This document shows positions 1-5,431 of a stretch of DNA of 16,139 nt, piece after piece; the first letter of the stretch is position 1; every line of letters starts with the position of its first letter. The stretch is from positions 5,875-22,013 of the forward strand of contig DPAW01000172.1 of the NCBI GenBank assembly GCA_003517285.1, read 5' to 3'. The position numbers and the translations under genes were made by a program. The DNA comes from Verrucomicrobiales bacterium. GTDB lineage: Bacteria; Verrucomicrobiota; Verrucomicrobiia; Limisphaerales; UBA1100. The notes below the pieces were generated by a model. That model was given only the letters and a program-made list of their open reading frames with translations. It was not told where the DNA came from and did not search any database.

Positions 1-128
1 TGGATTCGTGGCTGCGGATTCCGATGTTTAACGCGGAAGCGCGCTCGCTGAATCTGGCAAATTGCGTTTCGCTGGTGCTGTACGAAGCCTTGCGGCAGCA
101 GGGGTTTACAGGGGAACTGGGCGAATGA
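1..128 (+). CDS. trmL: tRNA (cytidine(34)-2'-O)-methyltransferase TrmL, C-terminal end (5' truncated by window)
   Basis: Only the last 41 codons are present; complete codons begin at base 3 and the stop is TGA at 126-128. The peptide contains the run [20 protein letters not shown] followed by [10 protein letters not shown], which is the C-terminal knot region of SpoU/TrmL-type 2'-O-ribose methyltransferases. There, the Pro-Met and the Arg-Ser-Leu-Asn-Leu segment help form the SAM site of the trefoil knot. TrmL methylates the ribose of the wobble base in certain leucine tRNAs. Other SpoU-family members share this end, so the exact target is less certain than the family. It is separated from the next gene by a promoter-like sequence and a riboswitch, so it probably belongs to a different transcription unit. 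Confidence 0.8.
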
Positions 129-141
129 TACGGATTTGGGG

Positions 142-169
142 TTGACCTGACCAGCGTTTGCCCTATGTT
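142..169 (+). promoter_or_regulatory. Candidate sigma70-type promoter for the SAM-controlled operon
   Basis: TTGACC at 142-147 (five of six matches to the -35 consensus) is followed after 16 bases by TATGTT at 164-169 as a -10 candidate. Transcription would then start near 176, about 18 bases before the first paired base of the riboswitch, which is where a leader promoter is expected. There is no experimental support, and the -10 match is imperfect. Confidence 0.45.
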
Positions 170-193
170 TGCCCCGCTCCCTGAAAGGGGGGC

Positions 194-307
194 GCTCATA
201 AAGAGTGACGGAGGGACTGGCCCGATGATGTCACGGCAACCGGTTGAAACAGCGCGTTTCGATGACCAGGTGCCAAATCCAGCCGGCGAAAGCCGGGAAA
301 GATGAGC
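194..307 (+). promoter_or_regulatory. SAM-I (S-box) riboswitch aptamer
   Basis: The conserved S-box core is readable in order: AGAG after the P1 5' strand, GGAGGGACTGGCCC at 210-223, GGCAACC at 236-242, AGGTGCCAAATCC at 268-280, and GAAAGATGAG at the 3' end. P1 pairs 194-199 with 302-307 (GCTCAT with ATGAGC). The P2 base pairs 205-209 with 230-234 (GTGAC with GTCAC). P3 contains GAAAC/GTTTC around 246-260. P4 pairs CCGGC 283-287 with GCCGG 292-296 over a GAAA loop. This class binds S-adenosylmethionine and normally shuts off methionine or sulfur-assimilation genes when SAM is plentiful. An expression platform follows directly (see the terminator), and the first downstream gene is the ThrC-like enzyme. 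Confidence 0.93.
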
Positions 308-325
308 CCCGGCGCAAAAATTTTC

Positions 326-355
326 GCCCGCTCATCGCTGTGAGCGGGCTTTTTT
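326..355 (+). terminator. Riboswitch-controlled Rho-independent terminator
   Basis: A perfect 9-bp stem pairs GCCCGCTCA (326-334) with TGAGCGGGC (341-349) over a 6-base loop and is followed by six T residues (350-355). The aptamer P1 3' strand, GATGAGC (301-307), is complementary over 7 bases to GCTCATC (330-336) inside the terminator, so it can form an antiterminator. When SAM stabilises P1, that strand is occupied and the terminator can form. The predicted logic is therefore OFF with high SAM. Confidence 0.92.
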
Positions 356-398
356 GTAGCCTGTTGTCGGCGAACATATTGAAGAAAAGGACAGAACA

Positions 399-1664
399 AT
401 GGTTGAACAACAGGGATACATGAAGGCGTTATGTTGTCGTGAGTGTGGTGAGGAATACCCGCTCGAGGCACGGCATGTTTGCGAGTTATGTTTTGGACCG
501 TTAGAGGTGGTTTATGACTATGAGGCGGCCAAGAGCAAAATGACTCGTCAGACGATCGAGCAACGTCCTCAAAGTATGTGGCGGTACGCCGAACTATTGC
601 CGGTGGCCGGAGAGCCAACCGTTGGTCGGGAGGTAGGCTTCACACCGCTGATAAAGGCTGATCGTCTCGCCAAGCGGCTGGGGATTCGCGAGCTTTGGAT
701 TAAGAACGATGCAGTGAATTATCCGACGCTTTCATTCAAGGACCGCGTGGTGAGCGTGGCTTTGAGCCGGGCGCGCGAGCTGGGCTATGAAGTGGTGGCC
801 TGCGCTTCAACCGGCAACCTTGCCAATAGCGTAGCAGCCAACGCGGCGTCTGCAGGCCTTACGGCATTTGTTTTCATTCCAAACGACCTTGAGAAGGGTA
901 AAGTGGTGAATTCGCTGATTTATGATGCCAACGTAATTGGTATTAAGGGGCACTATGATGAAGTGAACCGTCTCTGCGCAGAGATTGCCGGCAAACATGA
1001 TTGGGCATTTGTAAACGTGAATATGCGGCCCTACTATGCGGAAGGCTCCAAGACCCAAGGTTTTGAGATAATGGAACAACTTGGATGGAAGATCCCGCGG
1101 CACACAGTTGTTCCGATGGCTTCTGGTTCACTACTTACCAAGATCCATAAGAGTTATCAGGAAGCTGTGAAGGTTGGTTTAGTGGACGAGGCCGAATACA
1201 GTGTACATGGCGCACAGGCTACGGGTTGTTCGCCAATCAGTCAGGCTTTCAAGGAAGGGCAGGATTTCTTCAAGCCAGTTAAACCTGACACGATTGCTAA
1301 AAGCTTGGCGATTGGTACTCCGGCTGATGGTTTTTATGCGTTAAAAGTTTTCAAGGAAACCGGTGCGGCCTCGGATGACGTGACTGATGAAGAGATCCGC
1401 GAAGGTATAAAGCTGCTTGCTGAAACCGAGGGTATCTTTGCTGAAACTGCCGGGGGCGTAACCGTTGGCGTCGCTAAAAAACTCATTGCCAGCGGCGCTA
1501 TCCCTGCCGATGATTCGGCCGTGCTTTGCATCACCGGCAACGGTCTGAAAACGCTCGATGCCGTGGAAAACCATGCGGGTAGCACTCGTGAAATCGCTCC
1601 CAGTTTGCGGGAGTTTGAGTCGCTGCTAGATAGCGATAAAGAGCTCGCAGCAGCTACTCAATAA
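399..1664 (+). CDS. Threonine-synthase-family PLP enzyme (ThrC-like), SAM-riboswitch controlled; possibly a sulfur-carrier-dependent sulfhydrylase
   Basis: This is a 421-residue fold-type II PLP enzyme. It opens with a zinc-ribbon-like segment (Cys13, Cys16, Cys28, Cys31), as in many bacterial ThrC proteins. The PLP lysine is K114 in PTLSFKDR (109-116), and the PLP-phosphate/substrate loop is ASTGN (136-140). Classical threonine synthases usually read PTGSFKDRG here, so Leu and Val replace two glycines around the lysine motif. A well-placed AAAAGGA (385-391) lies 7 bases before the ATG; a second in-frame ATG at 420 is less likely. Known members convert O-phosphohomoserine to threonine. Here the S-box leader, and a CysO-like carrier only 9 bases downstream, suggest that the enzyme may instead place sulfur on O-phosphohomoserine (giving homocysteine) or on a serine derivative. 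The family assignment is firm; the reaction is inference, and plain threonine synthase remains possible. Confidence 0.88.
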   Translation: MVEQQGYMKALCCRECGEEYPLEARHVCELCFGPLEVVYDYEAAKSKMTRQTIEQRPQSMWRYAELLPVAGEPTVGREVGFTPLIKADRLAKRLGIRELWIKNDAVNYPTLSFKDRVVSVALSRARELGYEVVACASTGNLANSVAANAASAGLTAFVFIPNDLEKGKVVNSLIYDANVIGIKGHYDEVNRLCAEIAGKHDWAFVNVNMRPYYAEGSKTQGFEIMEQLGWKIPRHTVVPMASGSLLTKIHKSYQEAVKVGLVDEAEYSVHGAQATGCSPISQAFKEGQDFFKPVKPDTIAKSLAIGTPADGFYALKVFKETGAASDDVTDEEIREGIKLLAETEGIFAETAGGVTVGVAKKLIASGAIPADDSAVLCITGNGLKTLDAVENHAGSTREIAPSLREFESLLDSDKELAAATQ

Positions 1665-1673
1665 AACATTATT

Positions 1674-1949
1674 ATGCCAGTAAATATTCGTATCCCTACG
1701 CCGCTTCGTAAGCTCACACATGATGAAGAAGTGGTGGAAACCAGTGCCGAAAACATCGGTCAGGCCATCGCCGACCTTGAAACCCGTTATCCGGGTATTC
1801 AGGAACGGTTGCTTGATGAGTCCGGTGAAGTACGGCGCTTTGTCAACGTATACGTTAACGAGGAAGATATTCGTTTTCTCGATAACAAAGACACTGCGAT
1901 CAAAGATGGCGATGAGGTAAGTATCATTCCAGCCATTGCAGGTGGTTGA
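1674..1949 (+). CDS. cysO: CysO/MoaD-like ubiquitin-fold sulfur carrier protein
   Basis: This is a 91-residue beta-grasp protein ending in IIPAIAGG. The C-terminal Gly-Gly is the site that is adenylated and converted to a thiocarboxylate in MoaD, ThiS and CysO proteins. It resembles mycobacterial CysO in particular: an IPTPLR N-terminus, the segment RRFVNVYVNEEDIRF (54-68) and the AIKDGD turn before the final strand. CysO thiocarboxylate donates sulfur to a fold-type II PLP enzyme (CysM), and the gene just upstream encodes another fold-type II PLP enzyme. The start ATG lies 9 bases after the ThrC-like stop. No E1-like activating enzyme (MoeB/ThiF type) and no JAMM-type hydrolase is seen in the window, so these must be supplied from elsewhere. 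MoaD of molybdopterin synthesis is less likely because no moa genes are nearby. Confidence 0.88.
   Translation: MPVNIRIPTPLRKLTHDEEVVETSAENIGQAIADLETRYPGIQERLLDESGEVRRFVNVYVNEEDIRFLDNKDTAIKDGDEVSIIPAIAGG
1940..1945 (+). promoter_or_regulatory. Ribosome binding site for the NIL protein, overlapping the Gly-Gly codons of the carrier
   Basis: AGGTGG lies 8 bases before ATG 1954. Bases 1941-1945 fall in the two GGT codons for the functional C-terminal glycines of the sulfur carrier. This supports ATG 1954 over the earlier in-frame TTG at 1936 and suggests that translation of the two genes is coupled. Confidence 0.5.
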
Positions 1950-1953
1950 GCGC

Positions 1954-2253
1954 ATGCCAGCTAAGAAGACAGTCAAGAAAAAGGCGCCTAAAAAGAGTGC
2001 GGAAAAAGAGCAAGAGCGTCTTCGTTTATGGCTGATGTACCCGTCCAAGCACATCACCTCACCGATAGTTTGGGAGTTAATCACTCGGTTTGAATTGAAG
2101 GCCAATATTCGTCAGGCTGAAGTGCGCGATGAAATTGGCATTGTTTGCCTCGAGCTCGAAGGTCCACGTTCATCCCTTAAGAAAGCCTCTCAATGGCTTG
2201 ATCGCCAAGGGGTTAAAGTTGAGCCGGTGGAGATAAGCGTGATTAGCGGCTAA
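1954..2253 (+). CDS. Small NIL-domain protein
   Basis: This protein has 99 residues. A very basic, lysine-rich tail (residues 1-20) precedes a single NIL domain (about 22-95), recognised by the pattern SPIVWELITRF, then NIRQAEV, then a short hydrophobic strand and a WLDRQGVKVEPV end. The NIL fold is ACT-like. It is found at the C-terminus of the methionine importer ATPase MetN, where it senses methionine, and in ferredoxin-linked proteins of an archaeal homocysteine pathway. The domain is therefore repeatedly tied to methionine or homocysteine, which fits the SAM riboswitch and the sulfur carrier upstream. There is no cysteine cluster, so it is not an iron-sulfur version. It may be a ligand sensor, or may hold the carrier and PLP enzyme together; the exact role is unknown. 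The start was chosen from the RBS; it begins 4 bases after the carrier stop. Confidence 0.78.
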   Translation: MPAKKTVKKKAPKKSAEKEQERLRLWLMYPSKHITSPIVWELITRFELKANIRQAEVRDEIGIVCLELEGPRSSLKKASQWLDRQGVKVEPVEISVISG

Positions 2254-2254
2254 C

Positions 2255-2707
2255 GTGACCGGCGTGGTGACCATTCGGTGGGATGTGCTACCTGCCAAGT
2301 TGGCTGAGGTGCGTCGTTTGTCACTATACCCATTCAAGCCAGCCAGCACAGACTTAGACGCTGAGATGACCGCCAATTTGGAGGCCGTTTTTGGTGGTGC
2401 CTTCCGTGCTGATAAACCGATAGGCTGCATCGCGGTATTACCTGAGTCAAAACATGGCTGCGCCGCAAGAATCCGTTGGTTTGGCGTGCTTGAGAACGAG
2501 CGCGGGCAGGGCGTGGGCGCGCAACTTGTAATCGCCGCCCAGCAACACGCCAGCGCCATTGGCCAATCGCTCTGGGCCGATGTACGTGTAAAGGCTATCC
2601 CGATTTACGAACGACTCGGGTTTGAGCCGCTGGGCGACTTTTTTGAACTGCCGGAAATCGGAGTACACCGCGTGATGCGTTGGTGGCCGGCTGGACTCCG
2701 TTCTTGA
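2255..2707 (+). CDS. GNAT-family N-acetyltransferase
   Basis: This is a 150-residue protein with a GTG start one base after the NIL stop codon, so it is probably translationally coupled. The acetyl-CoA binding motif A is visible as ERGQGVGAQLV (82-92), with the R-x-x-G-x-G/A signature. The family's C-terminal signature appears as IYERLGFEPLGDFF (117-130), followed by a strand with HRVMRW. It should transfer an acetyl group from acetyl-CoA to an amine, but the substrate cannot be read from the sequence. Its position at the end of a SAM-controlled sulfur cluster suggests a small-molecule or protein substrate linked to that pathway. The known homoserine acetyltransferases belong to other folds, so it should not be read as MetA or MetX. 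Confidence 0.82.
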   Translation: MTGVVTIRWDVLPAKLAEVRRLSLYPFKPASTDLDAEMTANLEAVFGGAFRADKPIGCIAVLPESKHGCAARIRWFGVLENERGQGVGAQLVIAAQQHASAIGQSLWADVRVKAIPIYERLGFEPLGDFFELPEIGVHRVMRWWPAGLRS

Positions 2708-2756
2708 AAAAACGGGCCATTTCGTGTCCTCTCACCACGGCGCGACCCGCCCGGTG

Positions 2757-4199
2757 ATGTTGATCCACGTATCCAGAGACGGCCAACAATTCGGCCCGTA
2801 CACCCCCGAGGATGTACAGGCCTATTTGGCTGACGGCAGTCTTCTGACTACTGATCTGGGCTGGGTGGAAGGCACAGCTGACTGGGTGCCTCTGCCGCAA
2901 TTAGTAAGCGGCGGCGCAGCACCGCCACCTGCCATTCTCGGCATCACCTGCCCTAAATGTGGAGCTGGCTTGGAGGCGGATCAAGTCGTCTGTTTGGCCT
3001 GTGGGCATAATTTGGATGAACCGGTTGTGGAGGTTGCGGAAGAAGCAAATGCACCGCAAGAGAAGCGGAAGATACCACCTTCATTAACTTACGAAGATGA
3101 ATTGGCCGATCGATCTTCATTTGTGAATTCTGTGGGGTGGGGTCTCTTAATGGCTGGTTTACTGCCTGTATTCGGTAATGGGGAATGGAAGGTTCCTGCT
3201 TGGAAATTCTGGGAATTAGCTGAATGGCAGGCGATGTACAGCATCATCGGACCAGTGGTGGTCGGTGTCATTTTAATAGTTTTGGCGTCAGCTATGCATG
3301 GGCGCAATCGAGGTATTGTTATAATGGTGCTGGGATTGGCTATGGGGGGCTTGGCTTTGACGGATCCGGAGATTGGGGCCTTCAAGGTTGCGACCCCAGT
3401 AGAGGATACATCTACCCCCATTCCGGAGCCTTTGTCGTCTGAAGAAGCGGGGGGCACGGTGGATATCCCTGAAAAGAAGATCGAACTTGTAGATAAAAAT
3501 GTATTTTTTGATAAAATGGGCCTCAAACCGGATCAGCATTCAACGAGCATTACAGTTTTTTTGGTTGGCTGGCTTTTGCTGTTGATTGGAACCAAGTCGA
3601 GATTTTATCGGACTGACAGTGTTCTTGCGTATGGAATATCCATGTTAGGGGGGATTGGTATTTTGGTGTTCATGTTTATGCCGGGGCAATATGGCATGCC
3701 CTTTATGGCGGCCATTGATGCTAACAATAAATTTTTGGGGGTTGGTCTGCTTTTAATGATGGCAATGCTGTTGGGCGCAGCTGTTTTGTGTTTTATAAAT
3801 ACATTAGGTAGGCGGCCTAGCCAGATGAAACAATGGTCTAATTTAGCCGTAACGCTTACCGTTGTTTCCTTGGCTATGCCTGTTTTGCCGGCCTGGGGGA
3901 AAGTGATCTATGACGAATGCAAGAATGATCATGAGCGAGCAGAGAAACGCTTAGCTTATGTGGAAAGTCAGTTTGGCACAATCTACACGGGGCAACAGGC
4001 GACCCAGAAAGATATGGCAATGAATAAGGTGGAGAAGCCGATTAGTGCAGTGATCGCTGCCTCATGCGGTTGGTTGATGGCCGGGGTGAAATATATGGCG
4101 TGGATTGGCGGTATCATGATTTTGTTGCCTTTGGGGATGATTGAGACGATCTGCGGTACTCGCGAACGGGATAGTGATTTCATGGTATTGCAGCAGTGA
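2757..4199 (+). CDS. GYF_2-domain, zinc-ribbon multi-pass membrane protein
   Basis: ATG 2757 is preferred because the GYF_2 fold normally starts at the N-terminus (MLIHVSRDGQQFGPYT here); an in-frame GTG at 2724 would add 11 residues. Neither start has a clear RBS. From ATG 2757 the protein has 480 residues. The GYF_2 domain (about 1-50, with the GPYT and W-x-P features) is followed by a CPKC...CLAC zinc ribbon (about 65-82), an acidic linker, and some seven or eight hydrophobic helices. An acidic 50-residue loop separates the helices near 200-255. GYF_2 domains probably bind proline-rich or other short peptides, but bacterial members have no settled function. The next gene overlaps its stop and has the same domain order, so the two may form a pair. 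Coding is convincing; the function is not known. Confidence 0.75.
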   Translation: MLIHVSRDGQQFGPYTPEDVQAYLADGSLLTTDLGWVEGTADWVPLPQLVSGGAAPPPAILGITCPKCGAGLEADQVVCLACGHNLDEPVVEVAEEANAPQEKRKIPPSLTYEDELADRSSFVNSVGWGLLMAGLLPVFGNGEWKVPAWKFWELAEWQAMYSIIGPVVVGVILIVLASAMHGRNRGIVIMVLGLAMGGLALTDPEIGAFKVATPVEDTSTPIPEPLSSEEAGGTVDIPEKKIELVDKNVFFDKMGLKPDQHSTSITVFLVGWLLLLIGTKSRFYRTDSVLAYGISMLGGIGILVFMFMPGQYGMPFMAAIDANNKFLGVGLLLMMAMLLGAAVLCFINTLGRRPSQMKQWSNLAVTLTVVSLAMPVLPAWGKVIYDECKNDHERAEKRLAYVESQFGTIYTGQQATQKDMAMNKVEKPISAVIAASCGWLMAGVKYMAWIGGIMILLPLGMIETICGTRERDSDFMVLQQ

Positions 4200-5431
4200 T
4201 GGATTGGTATATTGTTGATGATGGGGAGGCTGCGGGGCCGTTTAAAGAATCGGAGGTCCGGCGGTGGCTGGGTTCGGGAAAGCTTTCTCCGGAGACGCAC
4301 GCGACCCATGAAGGGGTGAATGAGTGGAAGCCTTTGTCGGAGTTGTTGCCCGATGATGAAACGGCCGAAAATCTGCCACCGGCTTTCTCTCCTGAAGAGC
4401 CGATGAGTTTTCCCGTTGAGTCTGTTGAGGTGGATTCAACGGAATCTCCGGGGAAAACCAATGCCGATCAGCCGGATTTGCGGCGTTATCAACCTGCGCA
4501 GGAGGAACGTATTCGAAGTTGGGCGTGGACGGTGGTGGGGGCTATGTATTTGGCCGCATTCTTTTGGCCCACTGAATTATCTGATGGGATGGGCGTGGTG
4601 AATTTCCAATTCGCGTGGGCCATGAAAAATCTTTCGTGGTCGGCGATTCCATTGATGGTTTGGCCGGCGGTGGCCGGCTTGGGGGCGATCGGTACGGGGT
4701 GGTTATTGCGCGGTCGATGGCGGGCATTTTTTGGCGGAATATTGTGTGTCTCTCCCTTGGTCCTGGTGTTTCTGGTGGGGGGCGATGGCTTTGTGAAAAT
4801 CGTCGAGGCGCTCGGTACTTTGGAGGGTGTGGATATTAATGATAGAGAATCGATCGATCAGGCGGCTGAAAAGGGTAAGCATTTCATGAGTGGAATACTC
4901 GGGGTGTTTGCGGCGATGGCGTTGGGTATGGTTTTGATTGTCGGAGGCGCGCTGTCTGTTTATCTGATGCTTTTGTTGACGCCGTCGACAGTGCGTCATT
5001 TGCGGCCCAACTCGTCGGGAGCATATTACTTCGGTTTGGTCGGCGGCGTTATTCTATTTATCTTTCAACTAGTGTTACTGATCCTTTCGCTTTTGTCATT
5101 TATGGGCAGCGTCCTGTTTGGATTGGGGCAGGTGTTGGCGATGGGTATGCAGATGGCTGCTGTGATCATTGGTTTCTTAAATGCACCCAGCCGACCTCCC
5201 AAGGAATCCACCCGGCGCGCATTGTGGTCGGCGGGCTTGGGGTTTGGTGGATTGATCGTTTACCTATTGTGCCTGTTGGTTGTGCCGCTGATTGAAGGAG
5301 AGGTGCAGGCTGTCTTGGGCATGTATGTTTTCAAGGCATTTTTGGGATTCACAGCGGCAGCGTTAATTTTTCCGCTCGTGGTGATCGATCTTTGGCTGGG
5401 GCGGGCACAGACAACGCTGCAAAACGATTGA
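4199..5431 (+). CDS. GYF_2-domain multi-pass membrane protein, partner of the preceding gene
   Basis: This protein has 410 residues. The ATG at 4199 shares one base with the stop of the previous gene (TGATG), a typical coupled start; a GTG at 4196 is also in frame. Residues 1-50 form a GYF_2 domain beginning MDWYIVDDGEAAGPF and including NEWKPL. An acidic, Pro/Ser-rich linker follows (about 51-103), then about eight hydrophobic helices (roughly 105-123, 146-169, 174-194, 230-260, 277-300, 303-326, 343-365 and 376-400). Unlike its neighbour it has no zinc ribbon. The shared layout suggests an old duplication or a two-protein membrane complex with cytosolic peptide-binding heads. No enzyme motif was seen and no function can be named. 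Confidence 0.76.
   Translation: MDWYIVDDGEAAGPFKESEVRRWLGSGKLSPETHATHEGVNEWKPLSELLPDDETAENLPPAFSPEEPMSFPVESVEVDSTESPGKTNADQPDLRRYQPAQEERIRSWAWTVVGAMYLAAFFWPTELSDGMGVVNFQFAWAMKNLSWSAIPLMVWPAVAGLGAIGTGWLLRGRWRAFFGGILCVSPLVLVFLVGGDGFVKIVEALGTLEGVDINDRESIDQAAEKGKHFMSGILGVFAAMALGMVLIVGGALSVYLMLLLTPSTVRHLRPNSSGAYYFGLVGGVILFIFQLVLLILSLLSFMGSVLFGLGQVLAMGMQMAAVIIGFLNAPSRPPKESTRRALWSAGLGFGGLIVYLLCLLVVPLIEGEVQAVLGMYVFKAFLGFTAAALIFPLVVIDLWLGRAQTTLQND

Follow-up and report, generated by a model that had tools for sequence, protein, structure and literature searches.

We analysed a stretch of 16,139 nucleotides (the window) from a marine Verrucomicrobiales bacterium (GenBank assembly GCA_003517285.1, contig DPAW01000172.1, positions 5,875 to 22,013 of the forward strand), in which an operon preceded by a riboswitch encodes a relative of threonine synthase (ThrC), a sulfur carrier and a stand-alone NIL-domain protein. 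This operon is very probably the Verrucomicrobiota version of the MetM/MetO pathway, in which homocysteine would be formed from O-phosphohomoserine with carrier-bound sulfur, both substrate and chemistry being predicted from sequence. The core pathway is already in print; according to the portion of PMC12172450 available to us, Hasebe et al. 2024 found the ThrC-related homocysteine synthase MetM in Streptomyces, together with an S-adenosylmethionine (SAM) riboswitch and the carrier MetO. As far as the literature was searched, the novelty lies in the NIL partner and in fusions of carrier and NIL that keep an internal AGG.

Gene Organisation and Proposed Reaction

The metM-like gene (399..1664, plus strand) encodes a fold-type II pyridoxal phosphate (PLP) enzyme of the ThrC family with an N-terminal Cys motif (CRECG...), matching PF00291 with 217 bits and TIGR00260 with 283 bits. 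A function as carrier-dependent homocysteine synthase is predicted for it from 53% identity to, and motifs shared with, a MetM-type protein of Nonomuraea. After a gap of 9 bases, the metO-like gene (1674..1949, plus strand) encodes a CysO/MoaD-type sulfur carrier of 91 amino acids with the C-terminus PAIAGG (PF02597, ThiS, 8e-20). Its best match in the Protein Data Bank (PDB) was 3dwg_C (6e-24), listed in that search as cfp10A antigen, which we take to be CysO, the partner of CysM. A further 4 bases separate the carrier from the gene of the lone NIL-domain protein (1954..2253, plus strand; 99 amino acids), for which PF09383 was matched at 5.9e-11 and 42.5 bits (gathering cut-off 24) and of which Asn51 aligned with N295 of E. 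coli MetN. An earlier note on this DNA had described three closely spaced genes for a ThrC-family enzyme, a GG-ending CysO-like carrier and a lone NIL domain, and the Pfam and TIGR matches agree with that description.

For homocysteine formation, an E1-like enzyme encoded elsewhere would adenylate the C-terminal Gly of the carrier, which would then take up sulfur as a thiocarboxylate. MetM would remove the phosphate from O-phosphohomoserine, as ThrC does, to leave a PLP-bound unsaturated intermediate, and the carrier thiocarboxylate instead of water would add to this intermediate, yielding homocysteine. Hasebe and co-workers reportedly found charged MetO to be the sulfur donor. That a ThrC-like enzyme might use carrier-bound sulfur on O-phosphohomoserine had been proposed in the earlier note; the predicted activity is supported by the fit to MetM/MetO, a separate thrC, an S-box (SAM-I riboswitch) in 43/43 genomes with the enzyme, the rarity of metX and the motifs shared with the Nonomuraea protein. 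The author of the note knew of no characterised ThrC-family enzyme of this kind, a statement overtaken by the published Streptomyces MetM.

SAM Riboswitch and Terminator

An S-box leader with a terminator, as described in the earlier note, was recovered upstream of the enzyme gene. The SAM-I aptamer (193..308, plus strand) matched Rfam RF00162 over its full length with 80.3 bits (gathering score 44.4) and was the sole Rfam match above gathering score in the window; it is followed by an expression platform in the form of an intrinsic terminator (326..355, plus strand), consisting of a hairpin at 326-349 and T6. A scan for terminator-like hits is by itself little proof, with 4 found in window positions 1-2700 versus 3.3 expected by chance. 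Pairing is possible between GATGAGC (301-307), the 3' strand of P1, and GCTCATC (330-336) of the 5' arm of the terminator, and the energies of the ligand-free folds are close (terminator -71.8, antiterminator -70.5 kcal/mol). At low SAM, transcription would pass the terminator.

Conservation Among Related Genomes

Conservation was assessed in 58 genomes, comprising the window's own (G000, 62% complete) and 57 relatives requested at a completeness of at least 85%, and in 80 loci retrieved by searching with the window enzyme. The enzyme was present in 43/58 genomes with an identity of 74-100%; its gene was split across two frames in G011, the match in G025 contained one TAG, and a 100% identical enzyme was found in a Verrucomicrobiales metagenome-assembled genome (MAG; L006). 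In each of these 43 genomes an S-box ends 54-156 bases upstream of the enzyme match, and with strict filters these made up 43 of all 44 S-boxes counted across the 58 genomes. NIL lies 330-994 bases downstream of the enzyme match on the same contig in 42/43 genomes and 100 bases from a contig end in the remaining one (G055). Two genomes (G013 and G036) have NIL without MetM; since the contig breaks inside the carrier gene directly before NIL in both, their MetM was probably lost to assembly. At the level of loci, the carrier was found at most 3 kb downstream of the enzyme in 75/80, fused to NIL in three of these. A search of genomes for the triplet had been suggested in the earlier note. By these counts, the MetM/MetO route with its SAM switch would be present in 43/58 genomes sampled about a single Verrucomicrobiota MAG, and also in Planctomycetota.

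Some loci depart from this arrangement. In L055, an intact MetM-like gene with its S-box precedes a carrier gene (5161-5370) that is seemingly truncated (69 amino acids, no GG tail). For a KSB1 MetM-like protein (L072, 346-1587; 61%), no carrier was found nearby, and aspartokinase-like and aspartate-semialdehyde-dehydrogenase-like frames follow by eye. L022 and L061 have the MetM-like gene and S-box, and the available downstream DNA showed neither carrier nor NIL; the next frame in L022 is pantothenate-synthetase-like by eye. The contigs of L065, L043, L047 and L055 are titled Klebsiella pneumoniae or Akkermansia muciniphila, and their MetM groups with other Verrucomicrobiota rows in the tree described below; at least the Klebsiella-titled one is probably a mislabelled MAG. 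The sole S-box of the 58 genomes found away from MetM (L090, 1990-2103, minus strand; G004:C57:5489-5602) precedes a frame resembling, by eye, a MoxR-type AAA ATPase.

Comparison with Threonine Synthase

A score of 283 bits against TIGR00260 (thrC; curated cut-off 167) is what an ordinary second threonine synthase would give, its position next to a carrier and an S-box being incidental, and a homologue in M. aeruginosa makes threonine in vitro (PMC12172450, in the part available). The Nonomuraea MetM-type protein also exceeds the TIGR00260 cut-off, and the thrC model therefore does not discriminate MetM from ThrC. This protein stems from a locus of Nonomuraea gerenzanensis used as a stand-in for the Streptomyces MetM locus; it comprises an S-box (68.7 bits), a MetM-like gene and a 91-residue carrier ending in AVAGG, followed by a cold-shock-like frame and groEL (by eye). 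The window enzyme is closer to this MetM-type reference (53% identity) than to the ThrC of its own genome (36%).

G000 contains two further ThrC-family genes passing TIGR00260, on C145 (36% identity with the enzyme of the window) and C53 (PRK08197 type, 31%). The C145 gene is flanked, by eye, by the end of a homoserine dehydrogenase gene (hom) and by an aspartokinase-like (lysC) frame and represents the second, canonical thrC for which the earlier note had suggested searching. In the phosphate-binding segment, the eight MetM-like rows printed, including that of Nonomuraea, read N[VI]N.RP[YF]Y.EGSK, and the genome's own ThrC reads N-SINPVRIEGQKT. The positions of S155 and R160 of Thermus ThrC (1uim numbering) hold Asn and Tyr in the window enzyme; N154, S155 and R160 presumably have a phosphate role in the Thermus enzyme. 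The underlying motif alignment excludes L008 (ambiguous base), L018 (frameshift), L020 (stop) as well as L063 and L067 (cut by contig ends), and its L094 row is misframed and void. In a tree of 70 rows, for which a further 10 loci were dropped as near-copies along with L094, the MetM-like rows including that of Nonomuraea split from three ThrC rows, of which two are nearly identical to each other, with a support of 100/99 that is subject to a long-branch warning.

The window enzyme has an adjacent GG-ending carrier and, as in S. albulus, an upstream SAM riboswitch. From what could be seen of PMC12172450, thrC of M. aeruginosa, which was compared there with S. albulus metM, has no SAM riboswitch in front of it and is accompanied by a carrier gene that resembles S. 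albulus metO. With a canonical thrC in the same genome, the S-box upstream in 43/43 genomes and Tyr at the R160 position within the segment shared by the MetM-like rows, a plain threonine synthase was rejected as very unlikely. Current models score such enzymes as threonine synthase, and methionine auxotrophy could therefore be wrongly called.

Methionine Pathway Genes and Known Carrier Systems

metX scored above 300 bits in 4/43 MetM genomes versus 11/15 others (Fisher p 6e-6), and PF01053 above 100 bits in 8/43 versus 11/15 (p 2e-4); both cut-offs were set after the lists had been viewed. The family's own metX cut-off of 500 was reached by 0/58 genomes and 0/14 controls, and the acyltransferase count covers metX, with MetA (homoserine succinyltransferase) outside the families searched. 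The check for an absence of canonical methionine genes, proposed in the earlier note, gave a mixed picture, with metX missing at 300 bits from 39/43 MetM genomes but metY adjoining metX (L091) in G003, a 95% complete genome with a 100% identical enzyme. Neither metY nor metX was seen in the 62% complete G000. Because the identical enzyme in G003 occurs along with metY-metX, the MetM route may be one of two, possibly redundant, routes in the window's own species. An E1 (PF00899, E up to 1e-20) was found in 56/58 genomes.

Several observations weigh against a MetM pathway. The 58 genomes are related and not independent of each other. Besides the metY-metX pair of G003, strong metY and metX matches occur in G001, of the same genus, and also in G045 and G047, and eight MetM genomes in all have PF01053 above 100 bits. 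At E 1e-20, no E1 was found in G026 and G045, both of which have MetM. ThrB kinase was above cut-off in just 7/58 genomes, for which reason another kinase family must be supposed as the source of O-phosphohomoserine; no homoserine kinase was seen by eye beside hom of G003 in L141. No NIL was found in 28 of the 80 fetched loci, some of which end shortly after the carrier. In the part of PMC12172450 available, the MetM homologue ThrC of M. aeruginosa has threonine synthase and deaminase activity in vitro, and the authors question whether it serves fully as MetM in the cell.

A CysM-like cysteine synthase acting on O-phosphoserine with the carrier would agree with 3dwg_C, by recall CysO, as the best solved relative of the carrier. 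This alternative was dropped as extremely improbable, given that the enzyme scores as a member of the ThrC family, the switch senses SAM, one gene run (L074) contains a separate PALP enzyme, and metX is rare among MetM genomes.

Compared with known systems, the window shares with MetM/MetO of Streptomyces the ThrC-related enzyme, the carrier and the upstream SAM riboswitch, and differs by its third gene, for NIL; the 9.2 kb of the Nonomuraea locus yielded no NIL. The CysO/CysM/Mec system of Actinobacteria likewise combines a CysO-type carrier with a fold-type II PLP enzyme, whereas the window enzyme is of the ThrC family and Prok-JAB exceeds 60 bits in just 3/58 genomes. Carrier-dependent homocysteine synthesis, predicted for the window, is also performed by HcyS/MetY of Wolinella, whose PLP enzyme, MetY, belongs to the PF01053 family and is no relative of ThrC. 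A NIL domain takes part in homocysteine synthesis in the route of HcyBio (DUF39) and NIL/ferredoxin proteins, as far as the accessible part of PMC5764234 describes it; in contrast, no ferredoxin domain was detected by Pfam in the window NIL protein, and the HcyBio route was rejected with PF01837 in 0/58 genomes.

The NIL Partner

NIL was found in 52/80 loci, separate in 49 and fused to the carrier in three (L069, L070 and L074), and the three states (separate, fused, none) need several changes on the tree. An RNA-family scan covering 24 of the 31 loci in which NIL is either fused or not found detected an S-box upstream in 24/24. Because no NIL was found in many MetM loci that still have the S-box, it is probably an addition that is not needed for the core chemistry.

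The earlier note had proposed no mechanism for NIL, and we considered what it might do. In MetN, the same domain family forms the regulatory (NIL/C2) domain, and Asn occupies the N295 position in both; unlike MetN, the window system includes no transporter, and its NIL is stand-alone or carrier-fused. The match of the window NIL to E. coli MetN is weak but spans the length of the NIL protein (3dhx_A, E 0.016; 3dhw_C, E 0.2), with Asn51 on N295. Asn51 is kept in 50/50 separate and 109/110 fused copies. In the accessible part of PMC12357092, N295 is needed for methionine binding, and the exchange N295A raised the Ki of MetN for L-Met 28-fold. On the strength of the conserved Asn51 and its alignment with N295, a methionine-family sensor is favoured as the predicted role of NIL, with roughly even chances of being correct. 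As such, NIL would damp MetM or carrier charging upon ligand binding, as the regulatory domain does in MetN, and fast product control would be placed on top of the slower control by the riboswitch. It counts against this role that the Asn belongs to the name-giving motif of the family and the MetN match is weak, so that both say little on methionine specifically.

NIL might instead handle sulfur or free the product from the carrier, which we regard as rather unlikely. Cys65 is kept in 49/50 separate NILs, and a different homocysteine route employs NIL/ferredoxin proteins (PMC5764234, in the part available). Moreover, should an amide form, another releaser would be needed with Prok-JAB so seldom above 60 bits (17/58 genomes over the family cut-off). 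Position 65 is, however, S, A or G in 89/110 fused copies, and many MetM/MetO loci are without NIL in the available DNA.

No description of the NIL partner was found in the literature searched for a NIL domain with MoaD or a sulfur carrier, a search that did not extend to the original MetM report. In the main text of PMC1779556 (Iyer 2006), as far as accessible, neither 'NIL' nor 'threonine synthase' occurs.

Short lone NIL genes also occur away from carrier matches in many Planctomycetota genomes (L128, L131). They were discarded as a lead, with no sulfur or methionine neighbour seen by eye in the seven regions with open reading frames listed, of 12 fetched; in 2/7, a frame resembling uvrB by eye is located no more than about 2 kb away. 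In L107 (G101:C206), a divergent carrier (35%) and the NIL frame directly behind it are separated by a single stop; E1-like frames flank the pair on both sides (by eye), and MetM was not matched within 1.5 kb.

Carrier-NIL Fusions

The fusion of L070 was used as a protein query, and the best 120 of 241 matches were evaluated, a sample that leans towards the query. Both domains were present by precomputed Pfam in 112 of these, which bear the names of Planctomycetes, Sumerlaeota, Limnocylindrales, Deltaproteobacteria and Acidulodesulfobacterium. The carrier domain retains its final AGG in all 120 (112/112 with two domains), as recognised by one pattern in 117 and by inspection in three. Among these matches, the residue after the internal AGG was A, N or S in 97/117. 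An alignment of 74 of these sequences had A89, G90 and G91 among just 13 invariant positions.

In 244 genomes from the phylum of L069, full-length fusions were the top four among the matches listed, two of them being those of L069 and L070. Again among the matches listed, MetM adjoins all four, as it does the carrier in 23/30 loci fetched in this phylum; the carrier is unfused in the other 26/30. L069 contains MetM, the fusion and E1; in L070, MetM is followed by another frame, the fusion, E1 and a class-V aminotransferase (cysteine-desulfurase-like); and the gene run of L074 comprises MetM, the fusion, E1, TusA, a PALP enzyme and a JAMM peptidase.

MoaD, ThiS and CysO work via a free C-terminal Gly-Gly. 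As carriers need this free end, yet AGG is kept inside the fusion, the sequences suggest that fused carriers would require proteolysis to free AGG. Tentatively, NIL may be a methionine-sensing brake and the fused form a pro-carrier cut after the internal AGG by a peptidase, which would yield chargeable carrier and sensor in equal amounts, similar to the release of ubiquitin from its fusion precursors. A JAMM peptidase was rejected as a marker of fusions, being present in 3/3 fusion genomes tested but also in 13/14 others, which is consistent with such cleavage but no proof of it. Of the fusion loci, just L074 showed it near MetM (L069 and L070 were inspected by eye). Together, the NIL partner and the carrier fusions that keep an internal AGG raise a concrete, testable question about the maturation and restraint of these carriers.

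Neighbouring Genes

One base after NIL, a GNAT acetyltransferase gene (2255..2707, plus strand; PF13508/PF00583) follows, which is possibly cotranscribed with the operon. Because it is present in just 8/80 related loci, it was left out of the system, to which it probably does not belong. Upstream of the riboswitch, a reading frame that begins outside the window runs to about base 128, part of it reading N there. Further downstream, at 2724-4199 and 4196-5431, two adjacent proteins, each with an N-terminal GYF_2 domain, are encoded with a 4-base overlap.

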